Source: Bryum argenteum
Taxonomy: Eukaryota > Streptophyta > Bryopsida > Bryales > Bryaceae
Direction: 5' to 3'
DNA length: 64,000 nt
NCBI GenBank assembly: GCA_037043015.1
Contig: CM073330.1
Coordinates: 1,513,263 to 1,577,262, forward strand
A model generated the notes under the pieces. The model did no database searches, was not told the DNA's origin, and saw nothing but the letters and a program-made list of their open reading frames with translations. The translations under genes and the position numbers were made by a program. Positions 25,410 to 58,554 of this stretch are shown here, piece after piece; positions within the stretch are counted from its first letter, which is position 1, and the number at the start of each line of letters is the position of its first letter.

Positions 25410-27300
25410 GTGGTGGTTACAGGGCAATGCTTAAGAAGAAGTAGAACAAATTTCGGACTCGGAAGCTGCAAGTCCTACCAACTTGCCGGACAACTTATCC
25501 AAGTCAGTTGCCAACATTTAGATGGAGTTGTAAGCGACGCTTACGTGGTATCACGTGCAGGTTATGAGAGATGTTTTACGTGGTTCATGTGCTCCGCATG
25601 AAACCGGTTTTGGGGATACCGGCTCTCAATAAGAAACATTTTAGCAATTCTACATTCCGAGGATCAGGCACCTGCGACAAAAGCACCTCGACTGTTCTTT
25701 GCAGTGAGAAAACCATCGCAGAGAAGTTGCATTGGAAGCAACGTCGACACGGACCAAAGAGCAAGATATCAGAGTACTTCGGAGTCAATCTGATAAAAAA
25801 GACGGGGAAATGGGAGGCGCATATCTGGTATGAACAAATATGATCTCGTTACTGTAAGTGTGGGTGCTTTCATCATGATTGTGTTTCATGTCGATTTTCC
25901 TTCATTGCTCTTACGGTATGCTGTGCTTTTCCTTTCAGGTACCAGGGGCAGACAAATTTATCTCGGTGAGAACTTAACTTCTATGTAGTTGCAGTTTCTG
26001 TTGTTGCAGAAGATGAACCGATTGATGTGCATAGACTCGTTCATGGTAGTACTGACGGCTGATTCCATATGCTTTGCGAACGTGTATGCAGGTGCATCAA
26101 CCACTAAGATTCATGTTGCACAGTAGTAGGTAAGTGCTACTCATCATCGTCTTCCATTACAACGTCAACTTCTGAACCATTCTGATGGCAGATTATAGCC
26201 GGTGTTCTCGAAGATGTTTAGAGGTGCTGAAGGGAGCTTTGTAATCTATGGCCCCATAAAATGTCTTCGTAGTGTGACAGTTGTTGGGTGCGATACCCAA
26301 GTACGCAACTCCGCAAGCTTTGGCGATTCCTCACAATAAAACTGATGAATGACATGGATCGAACCAGAACCCTACCAAGAGGAGTACGAATTTGTAAGTA
26401 ACAGGGGATCCAATCTCCCAATTTGAGCCATGACGTTCATTCCTCGATGACATATGCTTTCGGTTACATGCATTTACGAGGGGGTGAATGTGCTGATTCG
26501 TTACTGTAAGCTCTGAGGGTACTACCTAAGCTGTGTTTTTCATGTACCATTGCAACTTTGCAAGATGCAACTTCCATTGCAAAAGAGTGTTTCAGAAGAG
26601 TTTTGAAAATGATTTGAAACGTTTCAAAAAACGCTTCCAAGAATCGTTTCAAAAATCGTTTCAAAAATTGTTTCAAAAACGTTCACTACTAGATTTTGTC
26701 CCCATTTGCTAGGTTTGTGTTTTCATAAAAACCATGTTTGGGGATGAGCTTTAACTACGTAACAAATGAGGTAAAATTTGAGTAATGGGTTTGGAAACTT
26801 TTCGAGATATTTGAAATAGGAAGCCACGACTAGCAAAAATTTCGACATGGTTGAGAAGATAGTGGATGTCTACCACCTTCTAACGGTGAAGCCAGTGCTC
26901 ATCAAGAAAAGTCGTACTAAAACGTAGTAAGTATACTTTGTATTTGAATTATTGCTTACGATCAAAATCCTCTAAGATGTAGAATGCTTGAATGTCACAG
27001 ATCAAGTAGCTGTGCATGATTTTAGTATTAACATGTCATGAATGCTTGCCTTACCTACTAAATTACACGAAAGGGCGACGGTTGAGTCGATTCGTGGAAT
27101 TCACCCGATTGATTGTACGTTGAATCATTCGAATGCTGATGCAAGTTGTGTTTGGAGAGAAGTCCAAAGAACCGTTGGATCTCATACTAAGAAGGTGGTG
27201 GTTGCAAAAGTCTTCAAGAAACGTTCAGACCGTTCTAGGAGCTCTTCGGGGATGGCAAATCCTGCAATCCAACCAAAGGCAGATATATTACCTACCTAAG
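25410..27300 (+). pseudogene. AP2 transcription factor gene copy B, decayed
   Basis: This is a plus-strand paralogue of the intact gene at 42357-46918. Exon 1 (to 25827) keeps HGPKSKISEYFGVNLIKKTG and KWEAHIW, the start of the first AP2 domain. The microexon at 25939-25965 (27 bp; 26 in the intact copy, so the frame shifts) encodes GRQIYLG. The 31-bp exon is at 26092-26122. Only the end of exon 4 remains near 26366-26393 (PYQEEYEF). The end of the second AP2 region is at about 26833-26925 (DMVEKIVDVYHLLTVKP), and an exon-8 copy at 27042-27299 (NHSNADASC). The linker exon and last two exons were not found. Introns are altered by repeats. It ends near 27330, tail to tail with copy C. Confidence 0.85.
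26533..26690 (+). repeat. TTTCAAAAACG-type repeat, copy in AP2 pseudogene B
   Basis: GCAACTTCCATTGCAAAAGA, GTGTTTCAGAAGAGTTTTGA and several GTTTCAAAAA words recur, inverted, at 27415-27585. In both places the repeat lies downstream of the AP2 exons on the sense strand, so it may have been present before the two copies separated. Confidence 0.65.
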
Positions 27301-27414
27301 AGGTTGGTTGTATTCATGAGCTAGAACAAGTATTCACAAATAGAATAATGTGTGTAATTTTGATCACTTTTATTCTTATCCTTATCTCAGAACTTATAGG
27401 ATATAATTTTGGAG

Positions 27415-27585
27415 GCGTTCCAAAAAATTGAAACTTAACATATTTCAAACGTTTTTGAGACGTTCTTGAAACTTTTCAAATCATTCCTGGAACGTTACAA
27501 ATCATTTTTGAAACTCTTTTGGAACACTCTTTTGCAATGGAAGTTGAATCTTACACTGCTACATGAAAAGCACGGTAGGGTACTA
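27415..27585 (-). repeat. TTTCAAAAACG-type repeat, copy in AP2 pseudogene C
   Basis: The reverse complement reads CAACTTCCATTGCAAAAGAG and GTTCCAAAAGAGTTTCAAAA, as in 26533-26690. In copy C it follows almost directly after the exon-3 relic, so the exons between are gone. Confidence 0.65.
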
Positions 27586-27589
27586 CATA

Positions 27590-29068
27590 TGCATAAATGT
27601 TGGTAGTTGATGCACCTGCATACACGATCGCCAAATATATATCAGCCGTCGAACGATTCTATGCACATCAGTCCGTTCATCTTCTTCAACTACAGAGAAG
27701 TGGAAGTTCTCACCGAGTCTGCCCTCGTACCTGGAAAGCACAGCATACCGTAAGTGCAATGAAGGATATAATATTTAACATAAAACAGATGAAGAAACCT
27801 CCCTACACTTACAGTGACAAATCAGCAACCATGATCTAATGCAAGAGCAATTACATTCGTACCACGAACAGAGATATAAAAAATTGACAATCGGAGTATC
27901 ACACTAATCGTTCATACCAGATATGCGCCTCCCATTTCTCCGTCTGCTTGTACAGATTGACTCCACGGTACTCTACTATGATGTCTTGCTCTTCGGTCCC
28001 TGTCGACTTTGCTTCCACTTCTCTGCGCTAGATTTCTCACTGCAAAGAACAGTCGGGGTGCTTTCGTAGCAGGTGCGTGATCCTTGGAACTTAACATTGC
28101 GGAAATGTTTCTTATCCGAGGATCGGTATCCTCCGAAACTGGTTCCATGCTGAGCACATGGACCACGTAAAACATCTCTCATAACTTGCAGGTGGTACCA
28201 CGTGAGCATCGCCCACAACTCCATCGGAATGTGTGGGAGCTAACTCGGATAAATTGTAGAGCAAGTTGGTAGGACTTGGAGCCTCTGAGTCCGATGACGG
28301 AACTCGTTCTACTTCTTCCTTAGCATCGAACCTGTAACTGCGACTCGGAATTGTTACAAGAAGGTGCCAGAGTGGTGGTCCCAAGCTCGATTCCCACTGG
28401 AGTCCCACCTTCGGAGGGCAATGACTGTTGGCTCGGATCCTAGCCGGCATGAAGCTGCTGAAGGAAAGCAGGTGGAACTGAATCGATAGCTGTTACCGAT
28501 AGCTGTTACCTGGCCTCGCGAGCTTCCCACGAAAGGTGGAAGCAAAGTGACGCAAGCGCTCAAACAAGGTGGCCAGCACAGCCGGTGGGAGGCTTGCCAG
28601 GAATTCGAAGACGGGCGTACTCCAGCCTGTAAGAACCTTGAGTCAGGAACGGCTGAAACACACCCGTGTTGATCGCAGTCTGCACGAACTCGAAGTTGAA
28701 GCAGACACGGCTGACCATATGGACTCATCACGAATGCTCCGTAGAGCAGCTTCCCATTTCCAGAGGTCGCCTGGACAAAGTCACGGTGGCCACCCTGAGC
28801 TACCCCATACAGCTCTGTGATGACAAACCGCCCTGGCACCGTAGAAGCTAAGCACTGTGCGGCTACAGGCACATCAACCTCCCAGAACTGGTCGTCAGGT
28901 GTTGGAAGCCCGCGTGCTGTCCCTGTGAGGAACCACTGAGAGTTTACGTGCTGCATCTTTGGAGAAGGAGCGTGCAGCCGTTCGTTGAAGTCATTGTTGT
29001 TTTCCGCCTCCACCGGGGAGACTACATGCTCGCGACCCAACGCATTTGGTACCGGTTCGCTCTCCATG
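27590..29068 (-). pseudogene. AP2 transcription factor gene copy C, decayed
   Basis: This is a minus-strand paralogue of the intact copy. The start-like ATG at 29068 (MESEPVPNALGREHVVS) aligns with MASMPVPKALDRAPVVS. The N-terminal region is well kept (FVITELYGVAQGGHRDFVQA, then GKLLYGAFVMSPYGQPCLLQ), after which the frame shifts. The first AP2 domain at about 28030-27915 still shows RQGPKSKTS and EKWEAHIW but is out of frame. The microexon near 27710-27730 is nine bases shorter than in copy A. Exon 3 is at about 27600-27612 and is cut short. Nothing later was found. Upstream similarity to copy A continues through the 5' region to about 33.2 kb. Confidence 0.85.
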
Positions 29069-29439
29069 ACGGCCAATAAAGGCGTTGAGGCAATCTCCAG
29101 TGTGTCCTTATCGAGAGTGAAAACGGCTAGAAGGTCGGCCCTGACGTAGTAAACTCCAATCGAGTAGATCGACCTTAGCAAAGTGAGATAATTACCAATT
29201 CCTGCACACATGCACCCATGAGAGCACTCGAGAACCACTTGAGTATAACACAGAGGAGCAGGAGGAAACAAATCTTGCAAAAGCTCCGAAAAGCTTATGA
29301 TAGAGGTCGGCAGGTGTTGTGAACTTAGGTAGCCCACGTATGACGAAGGCGTGGGTGGGGTGGACCCTGCGCCGGCAATTGGACTCCCTTTTGTAGAAAC
29401 AAGGTTTCCCAAGCGGTACAATAGCCCTCAGGGTGAATA

Positions 29440-29537
29440 GCGAGCAATAGAAGCGTTGAGCTAGCAGTAGAAGCGTTGAGGAGCGACAAAAACGTTGGGG
29501 AGCGATAGAAGCGTTGAGGAGGGATAGAAACGTTGCA
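29440..29537 (-). repeat. Minisatellite in the 5' region of AP2 copy C, about 18-bp unit
   Basis: On the plus strand GAGCGATAGAAGCGTTGAG-like units repeat about five times with small changes (AGCAGTAGAAGCGTTGAGG, AGCGACAAAAACGTTGGGG and so on). No matching array was seen upstream of copy A, so the array arose in this copy. Confidence 0.75.
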
Positions 29538-29675
29538 CAAGCTCCGAAAAGCTTGGGATGAAGGTTGCTCACTGTGGGGTGATAAGGGCCACGGCAACTA
29601 CAATCGTGCAATATGTAGGTGGAGCAGTCGGGGACGTGAGTGTCCCAACATCCGCATACAAACTGTGCAGGAGCA

Positions 29676-29785
29676 CAGCGGAGAGACAATTCGAGTGCAG
29701 GAGCTGAGCGGAGAGACAATTCGAGTGCAGGAGCTGAGCGGAGATACAACGGAGCACAGCGGAGAGACAATTCAAGTGCAGGAGC
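29676..29785 (+). repeat. Minisatellite upstream of AP2 copy C, about 30-bp unit
   Basis: GGAGAGACAATTCGAGTGCA followed by GGAGCTGAGC is repeated about four times with minor changes. It lies in the presumed promoter or 5' leader of copy C. Confidence 0.85.
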
Positions 29786-29799
29786 AGCTCAGTAGCTAG

Positions 29800-32700
29800 T
29801 AGCGAGGGTATGCGAGGGTATGCATGACCAGTGCACCAGCTAGGGCCTCTTACTTTTTGGCAGGTCCTCAAAATACCGACTTGTTGACGTTTGTTCAGTA
29901 GGATGTCCTCACTCATGACGAATGGTATCTTAGAATATAATATGACGAGACTTTCCAAGGAAGAATGTCATTATAAGCTTATAACTGAAATATAGTTATT
30001 TAAAAGTCTGCATGATTCTTTGGAGAAGTGTAATTAAATATTTCTGAATACAAACATTGCAAAGCCTTTGATATTCAAGCCCCTACTTTACATTCAACTA
30101 TGTTTTCTATTTTTTTGCTTGATTAAATATAGTTCCCTTAAGGAGGCTACTATAGTAAGTAATGCATCACAATGGGATAAGTTTCTTTAAAAGGTTAGAA
30201 AGAAAATCAAGCCAATGGGACTTGTGGGGTTGCCACTTTGGTGAGAGGAAGGGTAAATCAAGTTAAATAACCAACAAATCCACTACAATCCATTTGTTAA
30301 AGTATTGTACTTGTATTTTGTTGGTTCTTAGGTCTTGATTTTATAATATTCATATTGGAATCAATATTGGTGTTTTATTATGTGAGCTTATTAGGCTATT
30401 AGCCATGTGAGTATATTTATCATGTCATGTCACATGTGAGCATATGAATCATACTAATCTAAATTAATCCATAGAGTTTAAACAAACTTAATCTATCATA
30501 ATAAAGTTATAGATTAAATTAGGATTCATATTCTAATAAATTTTGAAACACCATATTTAAATTTTTTACTTAAATATTCATATCATAATAAATGTTGAAA
30601 CACCATACTTAAATTTATCCATAGAGTTTAAATATGGTGTTTCAAAGACTTTAAATTTTGAAACACCATTATAATAATAAAGAATATGGCTAATTTTGGG
30701 TTTATATTATTTGTGAATAGTAGAATCATAGAATGCAAAATAGGTTGTGCACTTTATTAACACTAGTAGAAAATAGTGTCCAGAAGTTGTCTGTCATTAC
30801 ATATCTGGAACTACATATAACCGCTTTTTTTTCATACAACTTTGTATCCTCAAATCAATCAACACAACTACCAATATCTCGTAATTTTTTATTAGTGTAG
30901 GAGTCCAACCTACACTTGTATTGTACCAGTAATTTTTTTATGAAAATTGACAATAGTAGTAATAGATTGAAGGTACACAAAGTCATTGAAAAAAAATGTT
31001 TCCATGTAACGCCAGACATGTAATTGCAAACAAATTTTGGACACCATTTTCTACTTATTAGTGGAAACTATTCTCTAAGATGAACCTAAAGTGCTTAGAA
31101 TATGAGGTCGCCTAAAATTATTGTCAATCGTTTTGGTCTCTATAAGCAATGTGAATGTTCGACGTGAGAATGAAAAATGTAGGATTTGAACCTAAATATA
31201 GAGTACAATCACCTGATTGTTTCCTAATGAGAAGTTGTGTATGTACTAAGTCAAAACACTTTCCATCACCACCAAATAATATAAAATTTGTTCTTACATT
31301 TAGAGCATTGTCCCTTTATTTGCGTAACTAACTACTTCATAGATAAAATTATGTGTAACATATTCTCTTGAGGTAACGTTCAATCTTATTACAAATAACA
31401 ATGAAAATACATGAAATTGAATGTAGGCACCAAGTTCTAGGTATTCCAATAATAAGAAGAACTTGATGATGGAAACCAAGCCAATGAGTTACAAAGACCC
31501 TTGCTCGATAAATTTGGTTTAGGGTCATAATTACTCACTTGGTTTTAAGGAGCCTTGTCCGTGAGGCGAGAGCTTTACCCATCTCCAAAGGTGGTGGCTC
31601 TCTAAAAGGCTAAAAATGCCTTAGGGTGAAAGCACACTAAGGTGGGTGCACTTGCTCATTGTACTAAAAAAGTACCAAAAGTCAACAAGAAATTTAGGAA
31701 CAAAATTCTGTGGTACTTCGAGTACAAATTTTTTAAGGCATCAAATAACTCAGAGAGAAATAGATGGAATCCAATGCAAGTTGTTGGAATGCACATGTCT
31801 TATTAAGAGCTTTTAATTCTAGAGGTAACCATCGATGGATGTCAACCCCCACTATAAGAAAACGCTGCCATTATGAAGTCAGCACAGGTACAATACTACA
31901 ATCTATACTTTTATGGAAAAAAAGTGGGGTATCCAAAAAGGATAAAATCATTATGATTTCCAAAGAATTAGCCATGTACCACCTTTTTGTACGCCATGCA
32001 GAGAGGATGTGCAAAAAAAAAAAAAAAAAATGGATCATATTTCACTGAATTCTCCGCAAAACCAATTCTGGCCCTTTGACCGTAAAAAATTACCATAAGA
32101 AAAAAGACTTCCTCACATGCTTAGTGTGCTTTTGAAGGCTTTATGCATTTATTTACATAATTCATGTGTGAATTTGTACTATCCTCAATTCAAGGCAAAC
32201 TTTGTACTTTTGTAATTTTTTGGCAGGCGTGAGTGTACTTTGAAAAAGGTCTAAAAGTACAAATTTGTAAGTGTTCCCTTTTAATTTTAAAGAGGAGTAC
32301 AATGAAATTGTAATATTCATAAGTATTGACATCATTGCCTCGAATAAGATTAGTACTCATAGATTGGGGTGTAGCCCAAACTAGCCCTTGAAGTTGGCTA
32401 CCCCTGCTGAAGTGAATTTGAAACGTACTAAGTGATCCACCTTAGTGTGCTTTGGCCCCTTAATGGGTAAAATTCCTTTATCCATTGTAAACCATCGGAC
32501 TGCAATGTCTATTCATGCGCGTTTAAATTCAAACTGGATAGATTCTCGTTGCCAACTAGGTATAGATGCCAACTAAGATGATTCTGTTACCTTCTTCCAA
32601 AGTGTATGTGAGACTCGCGACCAATGCTTTACAAAATATTAATATCTTTCATATTGATTTCCATTTGATTATGCTCACCTTTAAATATTGACATCATTCA

Positions 32701-34568: not shown

Positions 34569-34739
34569 CACCCACTTTTAAAAAGTATACATTTCTATTT
34601 CTTTACTAATGAAGAAAATATAGCTTTGCATTATGTATATGCAATTTAACAAAAACATCATCAATGCATATGCTAATTTAACTATTCCCTTTCAAACATT
34701 TGATCAAATTAGCCTCTAATTTTGGCTATTATGCTATAA
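34569..34739 (+). repeat. 171-bp direct repeat, left copy
   Basis: It matches 36310-36480 over its whole length with apparently one difference (CATCATCAATGC against CATCACCAATGC). The two copies bracket an unrelated 1.57-kb segment. They lack TG...CA ends, so they do not look like LTRs. Confidence 0.95.
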
Positions 34740-36309
34740 CTAGTGGGACCCGTGCCGTTGAGCACGTTCAACTTGGATTGCCTAAAGCTATAAAACATTC
34801 ATAAACTTCAAATAAGTTAATAGAGAAAATATTAAAAAATACATATCAAATTTATATATTTAGAATAATAAAATATACATCAATGGTCTCAAACATGGTC
34901 TCTTTTTTATTTTACGATAACATTCCATTGGATCATTCCTCAAAATGGGTATTGACCGGTGGAATCCCTTTACTCTTTGTAAAAGGGTATCATAACGTTC
35001 GTTTGCAGGTTCACTACTGAGCAACCGTAGGCCATGAGTGTATATCTCATAATCTGTGGACGAAATGTCACTGTCTTCATCAAAATGCTATCCTTGATGT
35101 AACATACACATCAATAGCTAAACTAAATATAGCTACTTCTGATCCATAAACACTCATTAAAGATGGATCCACCCAAGGCCGTCTTATTCTATCTGCCTCC
35201 AATTCTTTTTGTGATGGATATACATAGTTGGATAGCAGAGGAAACTCTATCTTATATGCAAATCCCCAATCACAAACACCTATGTACATATTATCTTCTT
35301 CTTTGTGTAATAAGATGTTGTCGGGAGACAAATCACAATGTATGCTACCATTTTTATACATAATAACAGAAATAGCATACCAAATAAAAAGTGCCAAGAC
35401 AATCGGATTCGTAGTCGTTGAAAGAACTTCACATTGTCAGCATCCACTCCTCGCTCCATACGTGATTTTCCATTGCACTTGAAGACCATACTTCTCATCG
35501 AAAAAATAAATTATTTAAATAAAAGATAAATAAAAGATAAAATTGAAATTGAAAATCTATCTATACATCATGCTTTAGATGATACATTAATCAATGAAAT
35601 CAGGCACATGAAATATCAAACAAATTTATTTCAATATTATATTTCAGTATTACCTACATCCAATTGAATAGAGTACAAAATATTTCATTCCATTGTTAAA
35701 ATAATTGATTAATTGCGTAATATAATACTTGAAAATTCCAAAATCTATCATTTTTTTCCTCATTATGAGTTTCTAAAAAAACTCTTTAGCCATATATAAT
35801 TTGATTTCATTCTGGTGCATGATTTTTTAAGGTCTCTTTAGTTCTTGATTAGAAAGAATAAATTAGACAAACTTTAAAAGTTATAAAAAAAATATTCTTA
35901 TTACTTAGTGTGTCACATGATCAGATGTGGTTTCAGTTTTCTATACTTATGAAGTATCAAGAAAAATAAAAATAAAAATGATAATCAATGATATTGCTCA
36001 GGCAAATATAATCAATTAAAATAATCAATTATTTTATTTGGTTGAAAAAGTAAGTTATGACCTACTTACCTACAATCCATAAAATCAACCAAATAAAGCA
36101 TCATAAAAGTTTATTTTAATATTATATTTAGAATGACCTACTACTAATTGAATAGGATACAAAATAATTTATTTTAACCCCTAAAGTCCACACTACATTA
36201 AAAAAATAGTCTGAAATTGAGCGGAAAGTGTGGATACAGGAGGCAAGTCTCGACGACGGATTCCAGCACGGAACCGTCGTGTGAGACAAAGCCTCCTGTA
36301 TTGTACCCA
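34740..36309. other. 1.57-kb insert between 171-bp direct repeats
   Basis: The insert begins CTAGTGGGACCCGTGCCGTT and ends with the right arm of a long hairpin. It carries a protein-kinase relic (35080-35440) and, at 35905-36180, a reverse copy of the AT-rich repeat found inside the hAT relic at 16.6-16.9 kb. The near-identical flanks suggest a recent arrival. No terminal inverted repeats or LTRs were seen. Confidence 0.6.
35080..35440 (-). pseudogene. Protein kinase catalytic-domain relic
   Basis: The minus-strand frame includes IHCDLSPDNILLH, which fits the kinase catalytic loop H-x-D-L-x-x-x-N (here HCD instead of HRD). It is followed by VCDWGFAYK in the position of the DFG metal-binding motif (DWG here). 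Downstream, RRPWVDPSLMSVYGSE and AIDVYVTSRIAF resemble the activation segment and the DVYSLG-like helix F region. The N-lobe was not found. Upstream of about 35440 the frame closes with a stop, and no start or splice site was convincing, so it is a fragment. The plant kinase subfamily cannot be named from this piece. Confidence 0.65.
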
Positions 36310-36312
36310 CAC
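36219..36312 (+). other. Long imperfect hairpin of about 94 nt
   Basis: The left arm GTGTGGATACAGGAGGCAAG then TCTCGACGACGG pairs with the right arm CCGTCGTGTGAGACAAAGCC then TCCTGTATTGTACCCACAC, around a loop holding CCAGCACGG. Arms of about 35-40 bp pair with a few mismatches and bulges. It lies at the right edge of the 1.57-kb insert. It could be an element terminus or a foldback RNA. No function is shown. Confidence 0.7.
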
Positions 36313-40100: not shown

Positions 40101-40249
40101 AAAAGTGTAACTTCTTGGTATAGTTCATCTACTTCTATAATAAAATATTGTACGATGATCCTTCCTACCCACCAATGTACCAACCTACCTACCTTCTTTT
40201 ATGTTTTTTGAATTATGTAAAAATAAATTTTAAAAAATTTAAAAAATTA

Positions 40250-40319: not shown

Positions 40320-40322
<3 letters not shown>

Positions 40323-42356: not shown

Positions 42357-45300
42357 CTAAGCTGGAGGAGGCCCGAAACGCTTCGCAGCTGTAAGAAGAT
42401 CACGATCCAAATTAAACAAACGATCCTTCCAGCTCTGGCCACCGTCTCCGGCATCACTCATCTGCGTCCGAAGAGTTAAACGTCGTGCCACTGGACGTAT
42501 AACGCCTGAAGATTTCGATGATGCTGTCGGGTCCAACGAACCTTGCATGCTACTTCGATCCATGTTCAGCTCCATGTAAGAAACATAGGGAAGTCCGCTG
42601 CCATTGGGAATGGCTCCACTGGACTCGCAGTCAAAGCTGCTCGGGGTGCCGGATGATTGACCTTGAATGCCTGGTTGAGTCGGAATAAGACTCGACCCGA
42701 TTTGAGGGCCAGTTGAGCTTCCTGACCTGCTGGCGTAGACTGCTGGGGGCGACTGGTCTTCCGTCTCTGCGCTGGCCGCAGGAGATGTTGGAGCTGCAAC
42801 TTGAGTCTCGCTGAAGGACTCCAGAGCAGCAGTACAAAACACCTCGCTGAGGGCTGGTGTACGTCTTGGTACGCGAGTCGCCTTGCTTCTGGACTTCCTC
42901 GGCAGATACACCCGCAATGTCGCACTAAGGGCTGTAGGCAATTTCTCTGCCACGCCCTCTGTCTCCTCGAGCTGCTCAGGTCGGGAAGACTGTGCGCTGT
43001 ATGAACCGGTATTCTTTGCATCTGGTGCTGAGTGACTCTTGATCGTGCTCTTCCTCTTTCGGGAGGCTCGGTCTATCTGCGGCAGAACAAAACACCAGGC
43101 ATTGATTGAGAAATTTCATAACGATTTCATAATCTGATAGAAACCCGCACAGTTGGGTATGACTTGTATATAAAATCTTTCAATCAATCTAACACGTATC
43201 TATAATATTGATTTTCAACTTCAATGATATATGACGGCACGGTAGAAATCTGCAGTTCATCGACTGAAACCAAATAATCGTGCAGCTAATATTCAAGCTC
43301 GACCGATACCTGACCAGCTCGTGGTTCTGCGTCAATCATGACAGTTCTTGGAAGGCTGACCTCCCGAACACGAAGTGCTTCTTTCGCGATCTTCTCAAAG
43401 GCATTCTCCTTTACACGTTCTCTGCAATATTTCTTCCGACCGGTTGTCCTCGTGGGGCGTGCAACACGTCCAGAGCTCTGCAATTGAAAAAAGCAAAATG
43501 ATCCACTTAGTACATCCTTGATTCAATGTTTACAAAATAGCCGAAAGGCCATTGTTCGTTCTGAATACACTGTAAGAGAGCCACTACTTAGTTACCTGGT
43601 TGATGGGCAGATCGATCAACATACTTTCTGTGGCACTATCCAGCGGTGCAGCCAATGACTTCGCCTTTCTGATGTACTGCCGCTTTGGAGACACACAACC
43701 CACCTCCTGGGTAGGTGGTGCATCTGCCTCTGGTTGGATTGCAGGATTAGCCATCCCCGAAGAGCGCCGAGAACGGCCTGAACGTTTCTTCAAGACTGTT
43801 GCAGCCACCACTTTTGGTTTTTGAGCTTCTGTCCAACCACAACTTGCATCAGCATTCGAATGATCCAGCAAACACTCGTATGAGTATATTTCGGGACTCG
43901 TCTTAGATCCGTCTGACATCGACGGCGGGCCGTGTAATCTAGTCGGTAACTCGAGCATTCATAACATCCAGTTACTCAGAATACGCACAGCTACCGGAAC
44001 AGCGACGGTCTGGAAGCATTCTAAATGACAGCAAAGCAGTCTTCCAGGGTTAAGCTCTGTGAGCGGAGATTCACATGGGGAATGTACTTACTCCGTTTCT
44101 GTTTGCTTATTCCTGGTGCTGGCTTCACTGTTCGAAGGTGGTGGACATCGAAGATCCTCTCAACCATGTCGTAGTTTCCGCGTGTCATGGCTTCCCTCAC
44201 AACAGCTCTGCATGCATAGCAAGACATTTAACATAGCAAGACACTCGATACGCCAATGTTCTCGCAAGTCCGGCGAAAGCATCCCATATCAACACAAGTC
44301 TGTAAACGATGCGTGTACAACCAAATGTTGATATAACCCGATCAGATATGCCACAAAAGAAAAGCTTAATAAATTCGCTAACATGCACAGAAGATAAATG
44401 ATCGCAATAGTCTCTCCATGAGACGATTCTTTGAACGGGTCAACTTACCTCACGGCTTCATCCTCGGTCGCGTAACATCCGATGGGCTCGTGTGACCTGA
44501 CGTGCACCCATCATAACTTTGGTGAGTAGAAGGCCCAGCTCATGTACATACAGATTAATCGACTTCAAGCGTAATGAGGAGTTGATGCTGTCATGTGCGA
44601 AGTACGAGGGCTGGAGAATGATGAAGATTACATTCAAGGAACTAAGGGAGGGATCCAGAAGAATGAGTAGGTACACGTCTTACGCTTTGTCCTTCCTCGG
44701 CCTGTAGGATGCCGTATACTTGCCCACTTTGTCCTTGACGACCCCCGGGTATCTGGCCTCCTCACCAGTCTGTCTGCTCTCTCGACGCAAATATGCCACC
44801 ATCTGGGTGTGACTCAACCTCTGCATCTGCTTTCCACAATCCCAAGTATAGGCGCACCATAGTGAACGCATGCGAATGCCTCTGTCATCGAGAAATAAAC
44901 ATCATGGAATCGGCTCAGATTAGGAGATTGGTGTCTGTGCGACTTACGAATTCGTATTCCTCCTGGTAGCTTTCTGGTTTGAAGTTGATATCAGCGTCGG
45001 GTCCGAACAGGAAGAGCGCGGCTCTGTCATACACTCTGCAAGCATTGGTTTATGTCACTAATCAGGAGAATAGTGATTAACTGAGGTGGGAAAATGCCGA
45101 TGTCTGCAATGTTGCATGCTTATGTCCTGTACAGAATTTGTAACAAGGCACTAAAAAGCTTCATTTAGCAGTTCAAACGCATCACTGAGAACACCAACTA
45201 TGATATACCAGCAGCTTGCTGAGTGACCTGCGATATAAAGGAAGGAGATGAGGGATCTTACTGTGCTGCATGAACCTTGGTAATTGATGCACCTGCGGAC

Positions 45301-46918
45301 ATGTTCGCAAATAACATGGGTTCACCAGTCAGTACTACCATAAAAAATTCCATCCAGATGAGTCGATTCGACTTCTTCATAGATAAGAAACAACGCAACT
45401 CATAGTTACGCGTACAAAATTAGACTTCAGGTAATTCTACGAAAAGTAAACATCACGTCTGCACAAGCGGGAGTTCTCACCGAGATAAATTTGTCTGCCC
45501 TGGTACCTGAGAACGCAGCGTAGAACAGTATCATAAGTGCAAAGGCCATTCGACATGAATCAGCTTGAAAAACATCCCTTCACTTACTTACAACGACGAA
45601 ACATCATCCATGAGTACCACGGCAGCATTTCGTACAGACTTCTGAGGAATTTACAATCGGAATTTCAGGTTGATCGTACATACCAGATGTGCGCCTCCCA
45701 TTTCTCCGTTCTCTTGTACAGAATCACGCCGCAGTACTCCGATGTCTTGCTCTTTGGTCCGTGTCGCTTTTGCTTCCTCTTGCGCTTCCTCGTGCTGGTT
45801 TTCTCACTGCACAGCACAGCCGGGGTGTCTTCGTCGCAGGTACTGGATCCTTGAAACATCGCATTGCTGAAATGTTCCTCGCTTAGCGCTGGTAGCCCCC
45901 AAAACTGGTCGCATGTGGAGCACATGGACCAGGCATAACACCTTTTGTGCAGGGGCTCATGCTCAACAGGAGCAGACAGATATGTCTTAGGCGATGCAGG
46001 TGCTATCGCCTCAGCACCCCCCCGAACTTTTACCGAATGCGCAGCTGCCGTCTCGGGTGCAACATGAGTCAAGTTGGTAGCGGTCGGAGCACGCAAGTCT
46101 GATACTGGTGCTTGTCCTCCCTCAGCATCGTCATGTAACTGCGACGGTGCCGCAGTGGTGGTCCCCGGCTTGATTTCTACCGGAGTCCCACCTTCGGAGG
46201 CCAATGACTGTTGGCTCGTGTTCGGGTCCTCGTCGGTATGAGGCTGCTGATCGTCTGCAGGCGGAACAGGATGGATAGCTGTTACCTGGCCTGGCGAGCT
46301 TTCCACGAAAGGTGGAAGCCAAGGCATGATGGTGATGCCGGCTGAGCTCATACAAGGTGGCCAACGCAGGAGCGGGGGGAGGCTCGCAATAGTACCAGGA
46401 ATTCGAAGACGGGCGTACTCCAGCCTGTAAGCGCCTTGAATAAGGCCACCCACAGTCGGGATCGGCTGAAACACGCCCGTGTTGATCTCAGTCTGCACGA
46501 ACTCGAAGAGTTGAAGCAAACACGGCTGGCTCTTCGGACTCATCACGAACGCCCCATAGAGCGGCTTGCCATCGCCGGAGATTGCCTGGACAAAGTGACG
46601 ATGGCCAGCCTGGGCTATCCCATACAGCTCCGTGATGACAACCCGCCCAGGCTCGTTCTGCACAGTAAGGACTAACATCTGCGCAGCTACAGGCACATCG
46701 GCCTCCCACGACAGGCCGTCGGGTGTTGGAAGCCCGCAGGCTGTCCCTGTGATGTACCACTGTTGGTCCACGTTCTGCTTCTCCGGGGAAGGAGCGTGCG
46801 GAGTGGTTAATGGCGATCGCCGCATCAGTCGGTCGTAGAGGTCAGTGTTGTTTCCTGCCTCCACCCAGGAGACCACAGGCGCGCGATCCAGCGCCTTTGG
46901 CACCGGCATACTCGCCAT
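42357..46918 (-). CDS. APETALA2 (euAP2-type) transcription factor, ten exons, copy A
   Basis: Model (minus strand): 46918-45684, 45506-45481, 45292-45262, 45035-44948, 44826-44684, 44496-44449, 44207-44092, 43912-43596, 43477-43310, 43076-42357. All introns are GT-AG, phases agree, and the total is 2892 bp (963 residues). The start is the first ATG after an in-frame stop. A basic stretch RKRKRKQKRHGPKSK (376-391), a likely nuclear signal, leads into AP2 domain 1 (393 to about 455): SEYCGVILYKRTEKWEAHIW, GRQIYLG, QVYDRAALFLFGPDADINF. The missing ten-residue insert and DADINF point to euAP2, not AINTEGUMENTA. Linker QMVAYLRRES leads to a divergent domain 2 (485 to about 540): ARYPGV, IGCYATEDEAV. 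The tail is Ser/Pro-rich with basic patches. Expected role: DNA-binding nuclear regulator. YCGV and QVYD replace usual YRGV and RAYD. The exon 8 start is the least certain junction. Confidence 0.85.
42508..42528 (-). promoter_or_regulatory. miR172-site-like sequence in the last AP2 exon, probably degenerate
   Basis: The coding strand reads GACAGCATCATCGAAATCTT. The known euAP2 target of miR172 is CTGCAGCATCATCAGGATTC. Ten bases (CAGCATCATC) agree, in the same reading frame (A-S-S) and downstream of both AP2 domains as in euAP2 genes. The part that would pair with the microRNA seed matches poorly (about half), so regulation by a standard miR172 is unlikely. It may be a relic or chance. Confidence 0.3.
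45262..45506 (-). other. Two microexons (26 and 31 bp) encoding the core of AP2 domain 1
   Basis: 45506-45481 (26 bp) supplies YQGRQIYL. 45292-45262 (31 bp) supplies ASITKVHAA, with split codons at both ends. Acceptors are CTCAG and CGCAG; donors are GTGAGA and GTAAGA. From memory, euAP2 genes of seed plants have microexons of these sizes at these places, which supports lineage and model. Both are recognisable in pseudogene B and, altered, in C. Confidence 0.8.
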
Positions 46919-48650: not shown

Positions 48651-51600
48651 TGGGTTCTTATATTTAATTTTGCACTTCTTAAGAACATTTGTATCATACA
48701 CAATTTGAACCAAGTTAGGTACGCTCATGCAAAATTTTAGGCACTCATTCCACGTTTTTGACCTTCATGTGCATTATTTTACGAAAGAAGGTCCAAAAAC
48801 AACAATATAGTAAAACAAGCACCACATATGATGTATTAAGTTTAAGAAAAATTTGGACGGAAAGTAGGTGCCTTTCTAAGTATGTGAATTTTGAAAACAA
48901 AAAAATCTTGGAAAAAATCCAATTTTGCAATTTTTGGCAATTTTTGAAAGAAAAAATTGTAAAATTACTAGAAATTGTGAAGATTATCTTTGAAAGTTTT
49001 AGAGGCTGCCCTTCTAAAATTGGTAAAAGTTTTGACTTCAGAATCTTTGAAATTTGAATAGTAAGTTGGTAATGAAATATTTCCAAAAAAGAATACTTCA
49101 AAAAAGCTAAATTTAAATTGCCCGTATTTGACTTAAAACATAAGATTCCCAAATGAAGGTTTTAAAACTTAAATTTGGCTTTGCAAATTTTACCACATAC
49201 ACTGATACACATTAAGGTATGAGAAGCACCTAGTAAAAATCTTAGGCAAAAATATCAATTTAACCCCTTGAATGAGTTGCCCAAAATCTCAAAAAACCAA
49301 ATCGGTTTTCCTAAATTCTTAGGAGTCAGATAAAATATTAATATTTTAGTTGAGCACGGATTTGAGATCTTGTGTAAGTTCTAATAAATTTGAGATATTC
49401 TAATTATAGCCCTCATGTTTTCAAAATCTACTATTATCCTACATTTCTTAATAATCGTCATAGTATTCTTGTTGTATAATTTGCCTTTACCTTGTAAATG
49501 AAGCTTGTACACAATGAGCCGTGTTGAATCTCTACCAACCACGTCTGACAAGAAAAACCCTTCACACGTTATACTCGTACGCTTGATCTTGCATTTTACA
49601 CCATTGAAAGAAAATCACTTAACTGACAATGACATTAACTCCTAGTCTCCAACCAATTGATTGTTTCAAGTTCTATTTTTTTCCAAATTGATTCAATGTA
49701 TCCATTTTACACCCTCATTATAACTTCACTTGTCTTTACATATCTTCAAAAAAATCTCAAAAAAAAATCAAATATGATTTTGAGGATTGAATTGATTAGT
49801 CAACAAATCTTGCACATTTCTCAAGCTTGATGTAAGCAAATATGGGGAATACAGTTACCAAATACCAACTTTTATGGGAAATTAATAACAATTACCTAAA
49901 AGCTGAGAATTCAACGTGCAAATGTTAATTTCAAACAAAATTTGAATGAATGGTAATAACAAATAACCTTAAAAAGTGTAAGGACATTAACCATCTCCAA
50001 GGTCCTCTTAGAGTAGCTAGGAAAACAAGTTATCCTTCTGCATAGAACTTTCCAAGCGAAAAGCAAGCTTCATAGCATTACTCCTCAAACCCTGCTAAAG
50101 GTTGTTAAAATGTACTATGCGACATTAAGGGCTTATTTGTATTTATATTGTGGAGTATTCATCCTAGATTTTGAAGATATTTGAGGTAATAAGGCTATTT
50201 ACTTCTATGTAAGGTCATGAGTTTAAATTCGGTCATAGTTTATGATTGTAGAGTTTGAACAATGTGTAAATATTGAACAAAGAAATTGATTGCCCTAAAA
50301 TTATTCACTTCGATTAACCATTCCCAATTAATCAAACCATATCTCACAAGTTTGGTAAGTACATACTTATGCCTACTTTATACAAAATTAAAGGCAACTA
50401 GAAATTTTCAACCTTATTTTATGGACCAAAACATCGTAGACAGAATATTTAGCTCAGGATGCGAAGAGAGGAAAATTATATGAAAAGTCATATTGAATTT
50501 TTTGAGAAATGTACAATGAACTTAAGAATTCAAATCCAAGTAATTCCTAGTTTTAACGCAAATTGTGGGGTCGTAGAAGTCAATGGCGACCGTAGAAATT
50601 ATGGGGTCCTGGAAGTCAATGGCAAACCCGGAAATTTTGGCTATTTAAGTCAAAATTAGCTAGGATTATATTTTCTTCACTATAAGATACATTGTACCAT
50701 CTATTAGGTGATAAATCTGACACAAGTTCAAAAATGAAATGATTCATATTCTTGATCGGATCTACCATATGACTCGAGTGCCACCTTTTCATCTTACATT
50801 GGTGACATTCCATTGAAAATGAGAGATATCAGAGTCGAAGGGTGTCAACTTAAGACTGGCTCTCAATACAAGTGATGGACCGCATAAGGTTTCATATGTG
50901 AATTCTTGCTTCTCGACAGCCCTAATTATGACCATTTTTGACACCTACAAAGTTCTCCTCAACTTCCAATTGGATATGCCTGGACTATTCTTGTGAACAT
51001 GAATAATATAGTCTATATTATTCTTAGATTTATATTTAGTTTTTCTGAAATCAAGAGTTTATAATAAACTTACAAAAAATAAATAATCTCCAAAGAAGAG
51101 TTTATACTCTTGAAATAGGAATATTTAGACACTCATGGCCCAACGTAAATAACAAGGAAGAGCAATTATAGAATGCAAAAAATGAACATAAGCATTTACA
51201 AGTGCAAATCCAAAGTAGGTATAGATATCATGAGAGGAAGAAATTATATATTTCTTCTACGTGCATCTTGAACATACCAAGCATGATTTCCTTTGTAATG
51301 TTCTCTTTTAAACTCATTGTTTTTAATTAAAACTTGAATTACTTCAATGGAGGAACATAATTTTGTGTATATTCATTAAGTGGTATAGGTACCTCTTCAT
51401 GACTTAGCAATACATCACATGTAGGCAAAACACAAAAGCTAAGAATGCATATGCAAACATTTATTCTTCAAACATCATATCAAAAGAGGATTTCTTAATG
51501 TATTATCCACAGCTCGCTGAGCTATAGCAAGTGTAATCAATCAAATAGAACACTCTAGATAATGAGGTCCCATGACTCCCATGAAGCTTTATAACTAGAA

Positions 51601-52604
51601 CCTCAAGTATATTTCATGATAGAAAGTAGTTCAAACCTTTAAGTCGTCTTTTTAGAAACATATGCGATGCCCTCGATATACTTAGTTACGTACATTTTGT
51701 CAAATGAATGTTTCATTCAACACATCAGATATTATCAAAGGCCAAATCTAATAAACAAATGTGGCAATGTAATCATTGCTTCAGCGAGTAATCGAGTACG
51801 GCCTCGAAAACGAGTTGATTTCTTGTGTATGTTGACGTACTCACTTTTGTCCTCTTTAAGTCAAACCAAGAGAAGAGCTGTAGCAATGACACCCTCTATG
51901 AACTTAGCTACTTCCATCTCATCATTTGTTGCCATACCACTCCGCCTCCTACACAAAGTCGACATAGTCATCATTTCATTGTATTTCAATCTAGTCATTC
52001 TATAGTTTACAGTGATAGAAATAAATTATTTCCAAAGTGTTGAAAAATCTATTATACATGTACAAAGTGTCTATAATCACATGGAAGCTCTTAATATTCC
52101 TATCAATTACTTTATGTTCATAAATGGCTAAATCATTTACCACTATTTGACAACGAATATCACTTTCTCTCAAATCTAAATAATGTACTATTAACCTGAT
52201 TGTACCTTTGGTAAAATAAATGCAAAATCCTGAGACAAAGAGGCAATTATAATATTGAATTTAACTATTTAAGGACTTGAACGATATAACATATTAAGTT
52301 AGATTGTCATCATTATGAACAAATCATTCTAAACTGGTTGTGAACATCATTTTCTACTAGTATCACAACCAATTCCTAGCCTTTCACTTGATACTTTGCT
52401 ACATTCTCATTGTAAGCATCCTACACAACAAACAAAAATAAACAAAAAGCCTATCCATCTAAATAATATACTCATTGGTCATGATATACTCTTAGTTTGA
52501 TGATACATAGTTACACATTCTTCGATGACTGCCTCCCAAGTACGACCCAGTGACAAGAAAGTTCTCATTTTTGTTTACTCAAGTATATGAACGATATCAA
52601 GAAA
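48651..52604. other. AT-rich DNA with a dispersed repeat copy (about 48960-49340)
   Basis: At 48960-49340 the dispersed family recurs in reverse form (TTTAGAGGCTGCCCTTCTAA, TTGGCTTTGCAAATTTTACC, ACATACACTGATACAC). The rest, 49340-52604, has short AT-rich frames only (for example 51667-52005) and no motif that I recognise. Confidence 0.4.
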
Positions 52605-55011
52605 TTAGACTTCAATAAGATTTAGGAAAATATTATTGTACAAGAAGATCTCACTCTGTACACCTCTGGTGTATGTCCATCGACAGCATATACATTCCTG
52701 CGTATCAGTTTCTGTTAGTGTACAACCGTTCAGTGCAGTGATGTCTGAATGTGGAAGGAGAGCATAGTTACCTTCTTCCTGCCCATTTCGGAGGCACATC
52801 TGCTTCCGCAGGACCACGGGCCACAGGTGCAGCAGCAACCGCTGAAGCGAGCGGCTCAGCAAGCACAGGAGCGACAATGGCAGTAGCATCGAATGAATAG
52901 GGATCTTCAGCGTCCGGAGTATAATCTTCATCTTGGCTACCCTCGTCAGTCTCGCTCTCACTGAACTCCTCATCTTCTTCCTCGTCGGGCAACGCATTGA
53001 CCTCTTCGCCATCGTCGGACACCTCCTCATCGACTTCTTCTTCATCGTCGGACACCTCCTCTTTGATGCTCCTGGTTGGCAGCACACAGGATAACACCGG
53101 AATGAGTTTGACCATTTCCTGATGATATAGACATGTTCTAACTGACATGTAAGAGAATCTGAGCATTTGAGTTTCTGCCCCCATTGTCACAGAATAATTC
53201 ACAAGGCTCAAACCACGATCGAACAATGTGGGCTAAATACGGCTGCGTATTCACTATTTGAGAAATATCTGCTTCACATGGGAAAGGATCTTTGGATGTG
53301 CAATTGCTGCAGAACTCTCTGCGTAGGCTGGGACGCTATTATCATCATCAATAGAAGGTGTTGTTAAATGATCAGATTCCATGAGTAATCGGGTACGATT
53401 CTTACTTGCCCTTGGAATCAGGGGAGGCAGCCGTCTCCAAGTTGGAAAGGTTCCCTAGAGCGACTTCCTCAGCCATGAATTTGGTGAGACCTGAAAGTAA
53501 CAAAGCACATTGTAATGGCTTAATATCATTCAAAGCCCTGATTAGAGTTGCTCCATTACTCCTGTCAAAAACACAAGATGGTTCTGTCGATCACAGGGGG
53601 GACAAGTGAAACAATTGAACTTGAATGAGTAGTACTAGAAGTCATACATGCTGTTCGTTTGAATTTGTTGTAGCGAGCCCGGCTCTCTCCTCGCAGCATG
53701 AGGATGAAGTCATCCACACACAGCTTCTCCCTCTGCACGCAATGACACGAGTTACCGAATCGTGCACCAAATATTTGCATAGTCATGTCAGCAATTAGAA
53801 AACCTGGCCCCGAAAACATCAACTCGAACGTCTATCATGTAAATAATAACTGGTGGCAGGCAGGAACTGGTGGCAGTCCCGTACCACTTATTCACTGGTG
53901 ATGGGAAATGGCAAGACTGGCCTGTGCTCCCATAACTATCCCCGACATGATCCAGGCTATTCCTTATTAGAAAAATCTGAGTCTTTGCACTGATACAACA
54001 GACAGTGTGTGGTGTTGATGGTTGGGCTTACCATCTTTTTATCCTCTGCATAGTTGGCTCTGTCAAAATTGAGCTTGATTCTAGCCGTCATGCTCCGATC
54101 GGTTTCCATTTTGAGGAGGACGCGGTCCTGGCACCTGCATGATGAAAACCTATGATCCCTCTGTAGAGTGCTCCATGCAACAATAAGAAAACTGAATGTC
54201 AAGAGAGCGTGCACATGTTCATTGAACACAAGGATTCTAATAATTGTACCTCGCTGCCAACCTCTCCGTCAAATGAGTGCCTACATCACACATCACACAT
54301 AGAATCGATTATCAAGCTCCGCAATCGGAAGCAACTAGCAACTTGATCAATATCAACGAAAGCACAGTGAGAAGCCTCACTGAAAATCAGAACGAATTTT
54401 AGATTCCATGCAGCAACTTGTACTCTTTTGCTGCACGGTGGAATCCTGTCATGTGATTGATGTCAAGGGAAGCTCGCCATCCAACCAACCTGCTTATTCT
54501 GAAAGTTGATTGTGTTGTGAATTGAGTTTTTGCAGAAACGATGAAACTTTCCTTAAGTTTATGATTGTCAAGCGATGGACCTACCTAGAAATCTCCGTCT
54601 CCCTTTCGTTTTCGGTTCCCTGCTCACACATTTCACAATGGAAAGTTGACCTTGTTAGTAGGGAGAAATCGGAGAATCAGTAGGGAGAATGATTGGGTGA
54701 TTATATTGCTTTCATTGAATGCGTGATGAAACGATACATTTTAGAGCTGAAGCAACAAGTTGTGATGAATCAAGTGCTTAATACTTCTTTCATCTTGTGA
54801 TTCTTAAAATTTTGTGATTGTTGGATCTATCGATATTTTTCATTTTCGTGGTTTACAGCATTCGTAGGTCATGTAGAACCGTGAATTATCTTGTGAGCCT
54901 TGTAAACAGAGGTATCCTTCACCATTCTTTCTTTCCTATGCGAAGAAGAGCAATAAGTCATAAAAACTCTAGTAGAAAGAATGATCTACTTACCTCACCC
55001 AAGCTCCCCAT
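52605..55011 (-). pseudogene. Gene 2, fullest copy (E); unknown protein with acidic C-terminal part
   Basis: Exons with good splice signals: 55011-54994 (MGSLGE), 54619-54585 (GTENERETEIS), 54280-54250 (RHSFDGEVGSE), about 54137-54038, and one near 53737-53654 encoding REKLCVDDFILMLRGESRAR. Then short pieces lead to an acidic exon (about 53140-52769): EEVSDDEEEVDEEVSDDG and SESETDEGSQDEDYTPDAE, ending PPKWAGRR before a GT. The first three exons agree in phase, but the fourth meets a stop in that frame, so this copy is probably broken or my exon is wrong. CVDDF-x-x-MLR recalls the helix 2-3 segment of TAF13-like histone folds, and an acidic tail would suit a nuclear protein. That is only a hint, and I do not assign a family. 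Confidence 0.5.
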
Positions 55012-56660
55012 GGCTGTGTGTTCTCGTAGAAATGCACATGCGTGTACAAGCTTGAGTGACGCTTAGGGTTCTTGCACTTGCTGCGAGAACCTGAATTTGC
55101 ACTTTTGGGAGATATACCTCGCAAAACAAATCCTGCAAAAACAAATCAACTATGCCGAAGAATTGCAAGTAAACAGCATTTGCAATACTTGAAAAGCAGA
55201 AAAATGCTTGAGTATTTATAATTTGGTCTTTACAAGTATGCTTCTTGCCACTTTTTAAAGATTGAATATTAAGCCGCATTAGTGAGAAACTGAGAAACAA
55301 AATAAGTTTGATCTACTTACAAATGATAGCAAAACAAATTCTCCAAAACAAACCAACTACACGAAGAACCGCAAGCAAACTTCAGATACCGTAGTACTTC
55401 AAAATAAAAAACATGCAGCAAGATTCATAGGCGTAGTACTTGAGAAGAAAAATGATTCATTAAGATCCTTTTTCAAATTGATCGAGCTACTACAGTGAGA
55501 AAGGGAGAAACAAAGAAAAATTGTTCTACCTACAAACGAGAGATATAAATGTTGTGTAGAGAAGTATTAATGGTGATTTAGACCAATTACGCAAACAATC
55601 TTGTTATAATGTACAACATGACAAAAGCTAAGTATGGTATTTTGTATAGTCATATATAACCCTAATAGAGTACCACGCCTTAAAATTCTTCTACCTCTTA
55701 TCAACTACACCTAGTAGCAATAGAGTTTTGGAGAAAATATAACCATTCATCTCAACTATAAAGGGATGCTTTAAAGTGGGAGTCAAGCAATCATGAGGCC
55801 TATGAAGGATTAAAGCTCTCATGTGGTTGGCCAGTTCAAGATTTTTGAAGAGATGGACCAATCACATAAGGGGAATTTTTTCCTCTTTCGGCTCCATGAT
55901 TGGCTTATTTAACTCTTCATGTAAGAGTTCATAAAACCCAATGAACTAGTTTATGTGATTGTTGATCTTTTAAGATCACCACAACAAAAATAAAATGAAA
56001 TAAAATGAATAAAATAAAAATAAATCTCCTTATAACTTAAAACCGTACATTAAAATTTTGAAAGATTAGCTTGTGAAAATTTTGCACTTTATAAAACCTC
56101 TTCTGAAGTTACAAAGTATTTCTATTTGTAGTTAACTACAAACAAGGCAATTGCAGTACTAGAGAACTTTTTAGTTTTAGAAGCCAATCATTGGGATGTA
56201 AAATTCTCAATAACTAGTCATTCTCAAGTTGATCTTGTATGATGACATTTGAGAGGATCAAAAACAATGTTGAACTTTAGATGATGAACCTATCATTTTT
56301 ACAAGTTTTGAAACTTGTAGTTTTTCTATTCAAACTTAATGATTAATATTGAAAACATCTCTTGGTGTTCCTCATATTTTTTTTTCTTTAAATATAAGCT
56401 TCAACTTTCTTTAAACTCAAAAAGTCAATTAATTAACTTTTAGATGTTTATTATAAATATTTGAAAATTTAGAACCAAAGGATCTCAAGAAGTAGGGGTA
56501 TAAGACTTAGATAAAAGTAATCAAATTTGTTATGTCTCACACATTGGGAGATCATTCCATATATTTGTTATTGAAAGGGCATCAAAAAATATGTGGTTGT
56601 TGCACTCTAGACTTACTTACCAATCTCTTGGTCATCTTGGAATAAACAGAGATTTACAAA
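55012..56660. other. Unassigned AT-rich DNA
   Basis: The first few hundred bases may be the 5' leader of gene 2 copy E. Beyond that, frames are short and without domains, and no repeat boundary was recognised. Confidence 0.35.
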
Positions 56661-57120
56661 TATAGGTAATTGTCTATCAAGCAATATAACCGGTGGCAGC
56701 GTCTAGTGGGAGGAAATGGTGGCAGTCCCGTACTCCTTATTAACTGGTGATGGGAAATGGCAAGGCTGGCCAGTGCTCCAATATCTACGACGTGATCCAT
56801 GATTCCATGCAAATTACTTCGTTATTCGCTAAAGAAATTTGGATATTTGCATTGATACAACAGCGGTGTTGATGGTCGAAATTACCAGTTTCTCATCCTC
56901 TCATACTCGGCTCTCTCAAAAAAATGAGGTTGATTCTATCCGTTATGCTCGAATCGGTTTCCATTTTGAAAAGGGCGCGCGGTCTTGGCACCTGCATGCT
57001 AAAGAGCTAACTTTCTGTAGAGTGCTCCATGCAACAATGGGAAATGTCAAGTTAGAAAGTGAACATGTTCATTCTATCACAAGGATTTAGATGATTGTAC
57101 CTAGGTGCCAATTTATCCAT
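56661..57120 (-). pseudogene. Gene 2, copy F, partial
   Basis: It matches 53870-54290 and 41385-41850. It includes the relic of the 31-bp exon (about 57103-57133, with an in-frame stop in the frame of copy E) and of the next exon, preceded by GCATGCAG at its acceptor. Similarity stops sharply near 56665 at TGTCTATCAAGCAAT, so later exons are missing here. It lies about 700 bp downstream of AP2 copy D, the same arrangement as AP2 copy A with gene 2 copy A'. Confidence 0.6.
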
Positions 57121-57831
57121 CAAATAAGTGCCTACATCACAAATAGAACTCAATCAAGTCAATCAACAATCAAACTCTGCAATTGAAAGCATCTAGCAAC
57201 TTGACCATTATCAATTGAAGCAAACCAACTATGCAAATTAAAGAATCGTAAGAAATGACAAATTGTACTTTTAAGAAGGATTCCCACACTTGTGTATCTA
57301 TAAGTAACTATGATGTTTTTAAACAATTACAAGTTGACCACCTAAACCGATCAATAAAAAAGGTAGAAAATGAAAACGTTTCATGAATAATTACTCACAA
57401 ATTATAGGAGATATGGATATTTTAAAGAGAGAGTTCTACAATTAAAAACAATTCAATCATGTTGTAGTATTGTGAAAGAGCTTTTTCAACACTGCGGAAA
57501 CATTCTTAATGAAATTATGAAAATAAATATAGAAGATGAGATTGCACGCACCATTTTAAGTAGTAGTAAGATGTAGCCCTCTTAGACTACCATGCCCAAA
57601 TAGTCTTGTTATTTATTGATCCATGGTCATGCTTGTGCTAACCAATAATGAAAAGTTACGCTTAATCCTTCTCTGGAACTCAAAAATTGGTGTGTGTCCA
57701 ATTGAACTTAGGTTATTAATACATAGTCGTGTATACATAATGCATTTTGAAGTCAAATATAACACAAAACTTATTTACATGGTCAAGTTCTTGCTTGTAG
57801 AATCATCTCATCCTGAGCTTACAATTACTGT

Positions 57832-58554
57832 CTAAGCTGGAGCAGGCCCGAAACGCTTTGCAGTTGTAAGTAGATCTCCTCGTTCACGCTCCATACAAAC
57901 GATCCTTCCAGCTCTGGCCACCGTCTCCAGCATCACGGATCTGCACCCGAGGAGTCAATCGTCGTGCCACTGGACGTATAACGCCTGAACATTTCGATGA
58001 TGCTGTCGGGTCCAACGAACCTTGCATGCTACATCGGTCCGTGTTCACCCCCATGTAAGATACATAGGAAAGTCCGCTGCCATCGGGAATGGCTCCAGCG
58101 GACTCGTTGTCAAAGCTGTTCGGAGTGCCGGATGATTGACCTTCAATGCCTGGTTGAGTCGGAATAAGACTCGAGCCGATTTGAGGGCCAGTTGAGCTTC
58201 CTGACCCGCTGGCGCTGACTGCTACGAGAGACTGGTCTTCCGTCTCTGGGCTGGCCGCAGGAGATGTTGGAGCTGCAACTTGAGTCTCGCTGAAGGACTC
58301 CAGAGTAGCAGTACAGAACACCTCGCAGTGGGCTGGTGTGCGTCTTGGTACGCGAGTCGCCTTGCTTCTGGACTTCCTCGGCAAATACACCTGCAATGTC
58401 GCAGTAAGGGCTGTAGGCGATTCCTCTGCCACGCCCTCTGTCTCCTCGAGCTGCTCAGGTCGGAAGACTGTGCGCTGCATGAAGCGGTCTTCTTCGCATC
58501 TGGTGCTGAGTGACTCTTAATCGTGCTCTTCCGCTTTCGGGAGGCTCGCCCTAT
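57832..58554 (-). pseudogene. AP2 gene copy D, last exon
   Basis: It aligns along its length with exon 10 of the intact gene (YLPRKSRSKATRVPRRTPA, ESFSETQVAAPTSPAAS, SMQGSLDPTASSK, PVARRLTPR). The acceptor GCCGCAG is kept. One base is missing relative to copy A in TCTTCCGACC (copy A TCTTCCCGACC), shifting the frame early in the exon. A changed end produces a stop after KDRLYGA instead of the usual RFGPPPA ending. Upstream exons would lie beyond 64 kb, because the Copia fossil sits in the preceding intron (junction at GATAGAAACC, 58623). High similarity to copy A suggests that this is the youngest duplicate. Confidence 0.85.

Follow-up and report, generated by a model that had tools for sequence, protein, structure and literature searches.

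A tandem array of divergent AP2-like genes with one unbroken copy in Bryum argenteum

When a single open gene stands among broken relatives, has it been kept by selection, or has it simply not yet been hit? The question is raised by a locus of Bryum argenteum, which we analysed in a window of 64 kb (C10:1513263-1577262) and followed through the whole genome (258.8 Mb, 25 contigs). A preliminary description of the window had proposed four AP2-type gene copies, A to D, that arose by repeated segmental duplication followed by decay and left one survivor under constraint. The sequence shared among the copies is far beyond chance, and we asked which of them are separate copies, how each is broken, what the open one encodes, and whether its substitution pattern sets it apart from its neighbours.

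A tandem array that extends beyond the window

Two of the copies described within the window are old fragments in mutually opposite orientations. Copy B (25569..27311, plus strand) is 5'-truncated, begins at the end of exon 1, reaches exon 8, and contains gaps and stops, and copy C (27882..29431, minus strand) is 3'-truncated and consists of exon 1 and the upstream flank with a broken frame. In a self-comparison of the window, A matches B at 77% over 269 bp and at 69% over 523 bp, and matches C at 69% over 1736 aligned bp. With their frames disrupted, B and C are older broken copies related to A, as had been proposed.

The same comparison gave 82.6% similarity between A and D (57519..58623, minus strand) over 1163 bp, so that the reported likeness of D to A stands, but the count of four copies does not. 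Once the neighbouring sequence beyond the window is included (positions marked w), A aligns to a copy E at w74864-70422, then at w64824-64411, and then to D at w58623-57519, in blocks that meet on A with overlaps of just 9 and 5 bp. Both gaps between the blocks are LTR elements, sited in introns 9 and 8 of E. The intron 9 element (w58624-64410) is a copia-type LTR retrotransposon on the minus strand, occupying 58624..64000 and continuing past the window edge to w64410; its LTRs are 98.7% identical over 234 aligned bp, its frames hold copia gag and integrase domains, and AAACC on both sides forms a perfect 5-bp target duplication (read by eye). The intron 8 element (w64824-70424), whose copia-like label was read from its frames by eye rather than from a domain scan, has LTRs that are 99.6% identical over 464 bp and is bounded on both sides by GTTAG, again a perfect 5-bp target duplication read by eye. 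Both elements are young. As the A-E blocks abut and the gaps are LTR elements with target duplications, D is the last exon (exon 10) of E, together with the end of intron 9 and the 3' flank, and it can be ruled out as an independent fourth copy.

Further copies were looked for outside the window and were found: the array runs on with E, H, I, F, and G at C10:1.58-1.69 Mb. Across a 214-kb stretch (C10:1503263-1717262), matches cover all of exon 1 through exon 10 in A, E, F, and G; H begins only at the end of exon 1 and reaches exon 10, and the remaining copies, B, C, and I, are fragments. B alone lies on the plus strand, with A, C, E, F, G, H, and I all on the minus strand, and the flanks of A, E, F, and G match in discontinuous blocks over at least 12 kb. 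The proposed segmental duplication is thus borne out, more exactly as a tandem array of adjacent copies that lie mostly in one orientation and, for A, E, F, and G, share flanks. When the tree is rooted on H as outgroup, A falls outside (E,(F,G)) with a bootstrap of 100, and a tree of the stretch preceding the AP2 region places B, C, H, and a piece at C2:24.41 Mb apart from A, E, F, and G, also with a bootstrap of 100. Processed pseudogenes were considered and ruled out, as E, F, G, and H retain introns.

Searching the whole genome at the DNA level with 1201 bp from exon 1 and the edge of intron 1 returned 15 matches, nine of them within C10:1538831-1694823. A protein search of the genome, in which 48 of 75 candidates were scored, gave at least 56 matches and may thus have missed some. 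Neither the DNA search nor the protein search at that coverage found a further full copy elsewhere in the genome.

Measured against A's frame, E is disrupted by two stops, an insertion of 5 bp, and a deletion of 1 bp; F by two stops and by loss of the exon 6 donor; G by a fold-back insertion of 167 bp in exon 1 and by a stop in exon 7 beside a 9-bp insertion; and H shows many disabling changes, its exon 1 aligning poorly. B, C, E (including D), F, G, and H are therefore each broken differently, in agreement with the decay first proposed. The locus comprises eight copies or fragments (A, B, C, E with D, F, G, H, and I), of which A alone is unbroken, and A is also the one survivor in the genome searches that were run. 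The insertion in G (C10:1693.9-1694.1 kb, w180651-180839) is a near-perfect fold-back with arms 91% alike over 162 bp, similar to a small inverted-repeat element, and has no second copy in the 214-kb stretch.

Elsewhere in the window, an 87-bp perfect direct repeat of LINE sequence (6884-6970 and 10127-10213), unusually long for a target duplication, flanks a copia fragment of ~3.1 kb (ORF 7238-9223, plus strand) that lies inside a LINE (ORFs 5122-6669, 10054-11772, and 12470-13930, minus strand); no LTRs were found in the fragment between the repeats. A 105-aa ORF at 35080-35397 (minus strand), in repeat-rich surroundings, is similar to a portion of a protein kinase (Pkinase E 3.4e-7, 30.4 bits against a cut-off of 31.7). 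The 64-kb window contains no tRNA and no Rfam match above threshold. Elsewhere in the genome a single LEAFY gene was detected, on C5, with D and C at the sites numbered 312 and 345, probably the moss type. Bryopsida mosses carry type II LFY (PMC6588583).

Copy A and its relatives

Copy A (42357..46918, minus strand) is a probable divergent double-AP2 gene of ten exons encoding 961 aa, a model based on splice sites, the open frame, and similarity to WRI1. Its splice signals and phases are kept over all ten exons from 46918 down to 42357, as previously noted: GT and AG are present at nine of nine introns, and a single open frame spans 961 codons. Exon 1 (45684..46918, minus) encodes the N-terminal arm, an RCx5CxxC motif, a basic stretch, and the start of AP2 repeat 1; exons 2-7 (44092..45506, minus) supply the remainder of repeat 1, the linker, and a degenerate repeat 2; and exons 8-10 (42357..43912, minus) supply the C-terminal arm.

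One detail of this model, the exon 8 acceptor at 43912, appears doubtful. Just downstream of it an additional AT is found in E, F, G, and H, and another 17-18 bp in E and H. An alternative acceptor at 43828 leaves the downstream frame of A unchanged and gives a protein of 933 aa; the AG before 43828 is common to A, E, F, G, and H, and a CTGAT upstream, which we take to be a candidate branch point, is found in these five copies and also in B. The two-base gap at the start of A's exon 8, relative to E, F, G, and H, is probably an intronic position. We dropped the AT and 17-18 bp differences as disabling changes and kept them out of the count of nine given below, because the shared 43828 acceptor preserves the frame. 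Near the C-terminus, the frame of A differs from that of E, F, G, and H.

The best solved relative of A is the double-AP2 factor WRI1 (PDB 7wq5, E 3.7e-13), and TEM1 (7et4) is also matched (E 0.011). Against Pfam AP2 (PF00847) the whole protein scores 15.2 bits and its AP2 part 18.5 bits, below the cut-off of 33.3, and A is absent from the 74 genome matches to that family; it thus lies outside AP2/ERF by the Pfam cut-off, while its significant similarity to solved AP2 domains would make it, by homology, a divergent member. As in WRI1, there appear to be two AP2 repeats in A, joined by an LRR(E/Q)S-type linker, and repeat 1 and the linker align to WRI1 with significance; repeat 2, without a Pfam match, was recognised by eye and from the exon order of a relative on C4. 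Unlike WRI1, A falls below the Pfam cut-off, its repeat 1 is without the long insertion, its repeat 2 is degenerate, and an N-terminal arm of about 320 residues is unmatched. The YRGV of repeat 1 also reads YCGV, a change to cysteine of an arginine that presumably contacts DNA. The N-terminal arm was modelled with AlphaFold2 on a five-sequence alignment at a mean pLDDT of 28, so nothing can be read from that model. The basic stretch before repeat 1 could be a putative nuclear signal, and the product is most likely, as predicted from these features, a nuclear DNA-binding regulator, or recently was one. The opening parts of the abstracts among the best literature matches do not describe the gene.

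In the C4 relative, three exons (26, 31, and 88 bp) correspond to A's exons 2-4; unlike A, this relative passes the Pfam AP2 cut-off (36.0 bits), keeps YRGV, and has no counterpart of A's N-terminal arm. Matches to it lie on C4 (2.52 and 2.64 Mb), C2 (3.89-4.05 Mb), and C5 (17.61 Mb), and the RCx5CxxC motif before repeat 1 is common to A, the C4 relative, and one C2 relative. By eye, a C2 relative (L029, C2:3885600-3890100) seems to be without part of the exon matching A's exon 4, so broken copies may be present in the C2 cluster as well. With the first 220 residues of A as query, 13 matches up to E 10 were obtained in the genome, eight of them at this locus; those elsewhere are broken fragments at C10:4.55 Mb, C9:10.85 Mb, and C5:13.95 Mb, a weak match (E 0.006) at C2:24.41 Mb, and a last match no better than chance. 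Some 21 codons of AP2 repeat 1 also recur, 95% and 90% identical to A, in two C1 stretches (L025 near 4790-4852 and L026 near 4246-4308, respectively) that resemble each other and are otherwise unrelated to A.

Substitution and frame retention in copy A

Codon models with separate omegas per branch were fitted to five sequences with our own script, stops and gapped codons being scored as missing data. The outgroup H is distant and without most of exon 1, which leaves N-terminal-arm changes poorly polarised. The first whole-protein fit used all 961 codons; codons 561-588 were left out of the subsequent whole-protein fit and of the regional and core/rest fits. Codons 412-460, within a tract of apparent conversion (see below), and those after 944 were also left out of the second whole-protein fit and the core/rest fit, and the regional AP2 fit does include codons 412-460.

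On the A branch omega was 1.10 over all 961 codons (p=0.75 against 1) and 1.02 without the doubtful and converted codons, a fit in which 1 was not rejected (p=0.94) and both 0.6 (p=0.046) and 2.0 (p=0.035) were. On the broken-copy branches omega for the whole protein was 0.59, and 1 was rejected (p=0.0014). Over all branches, constraint was evident in the AP2 region of exons 2-7 (codons 391-560, omega 0.28, p=8.9e-8) and in the Cys-rich stretch (0.35, p=0.001); the N-terminal arm gave 0.83 (p=0.28), and in the C-terminal arm (codons 589-944) no constraint was detectable (0.97, p=0.83). When the Cys-rich and AP2 parts were combined as a core and fitted with branch lengths shared between core and rest, core omega on A was 0.43 (p=0.063), with 0.46 (p=3.8e-5) for the older branches and 0.44 (p=0.001) for the broken-copy branches; outside the core the values were 1.23 (p=0.46), 0.90, and 0.62, respectively. 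A fit of AP2 only was based on a very small number of changes and put A's omega at the upper bound (p=0.17 against 1); the three AP2 replacements of A are K494, A515, and D518.

The claim of a survivor under constraint therefore finds no support over the whole protein, where replacement and silent change come out equal, the result set beforehand as counting against it; in the core there are hints in its favour, at a value that the broken copies match. That the core constraint of the broken copies equals A's fits recent decay. The best sign of maintenance that we found is frame retention, which moderately favours it: no disabling change fell on A against nine on E, F, and G (conditional p=0.017), or none against seven up to the AP2 end (p=0.042), on branch lengths of about 0.05 substitutions per site for A and 0.089 in total for E, F, and G. 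If the C-terminal frame change of A, which stands outside the main count of nine, is counted, p becomes 0.073. Taken from these patterns, the suggestion that A is kept by selection is weak.

Probable birth and death, possible exchange, and the standing of copy A

We consider it likely, with some reserve, that the locus records tandem birth and death in a divergent double-AP2 family, with A as the present survivor whose core matters while its arms drift. A divergent double-AP2 gene would have been duplicated along with its flanks into a tandem array, which may have grown by unequal crossing-over. What is seen directly is that the other copies are disrupted by stops and frameshifts, by loss of a donor site, by a fold-back insertion, or by missing exons, that LTR elements have entered two introns of E, and that A and E share a tract that looks converted. 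The core constraint on the branches of E, F, and G resembles that of A and suggests that these copies may still have worked not long ago. The product of A would be a nuclear DNA-binding regulator in which the Cys-rich and AP2 core matters and the long N- and C-terminal arms drift almost freely, and A would be the current survivor of a birth-and-death turnover with further family clusters on C2 and C4. Tandem gain, independent decay, and exchange between copies are as in known birth-and-death tandem families, from which we saw no departure.

The most serious rival is that A is not maintained at all and is a pseudogene in waiting that by chance has not yet been hit. An omega of about 1 on its branch, its unconstrained arms, and its C-terminal frame change relative to E, F, G, and H all fit such an account, but the lack of disabling changes on A's branch against nine on E, F, and G, and the core omega of A, both borderline, speak against it, and we regard it as rather unlikely. 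Much less probable is that A was kept or partly restored by gene conversion, the array acting as one pool, rather than by selection on A alone. From 45591 to 45092 on A (45092..45591, minus strand), 23 sites join A and E against F and G and one groups otherwise; A and E fall together at 45490-44800 with a bootstrap of 100; introns 2-4 are 96-98% alike between them, against 90-95% for the other six introns; and exon 4 is identical among A, E, F, and G. The tract over exons 2-4 fits gene conversion in either direction, but outside about 0.5-0.7 kb the tree separates A from E, F, and G with a bootstrap of 100. We give least credence of all, and very little, to a mobile element that captured the gene and carried its copies, for which the N-terminal fragments on C5, C9, and at C10:4.55 Mb and the numerous mobile elements in the window might be cited, but A, E, F, and G share a single array and orientation, have flanks in common, and retain their introns.

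Beyond the birth-and-death reading, it is conceivable, though speculative and somewhat less probable even than the chance survival of A, that A belongs to a lineage-specific AP2 offshoot, marked by a new arm of ~300 residues without a Pfam match, by RCx5CxxC, and by loss of the YRGV arginine. Such an offshoot would perhaps have exchanged ordinary AP2 DNA binding for another role, with rapid turnover of its clusters on C10, C2, and C4 of the kind seen in genes in conflict.

An open frame among broken neighbours is not by itself proof of selection, because the substitution pattern here hardly separates A from the broken copies. On the birth-and-death reading, the locus would be a clear case of birth and death among tandem genes of a divergent plant transcription-factor family, in which exchange appears to have been caught between an open copy (A) and a broken one (E).
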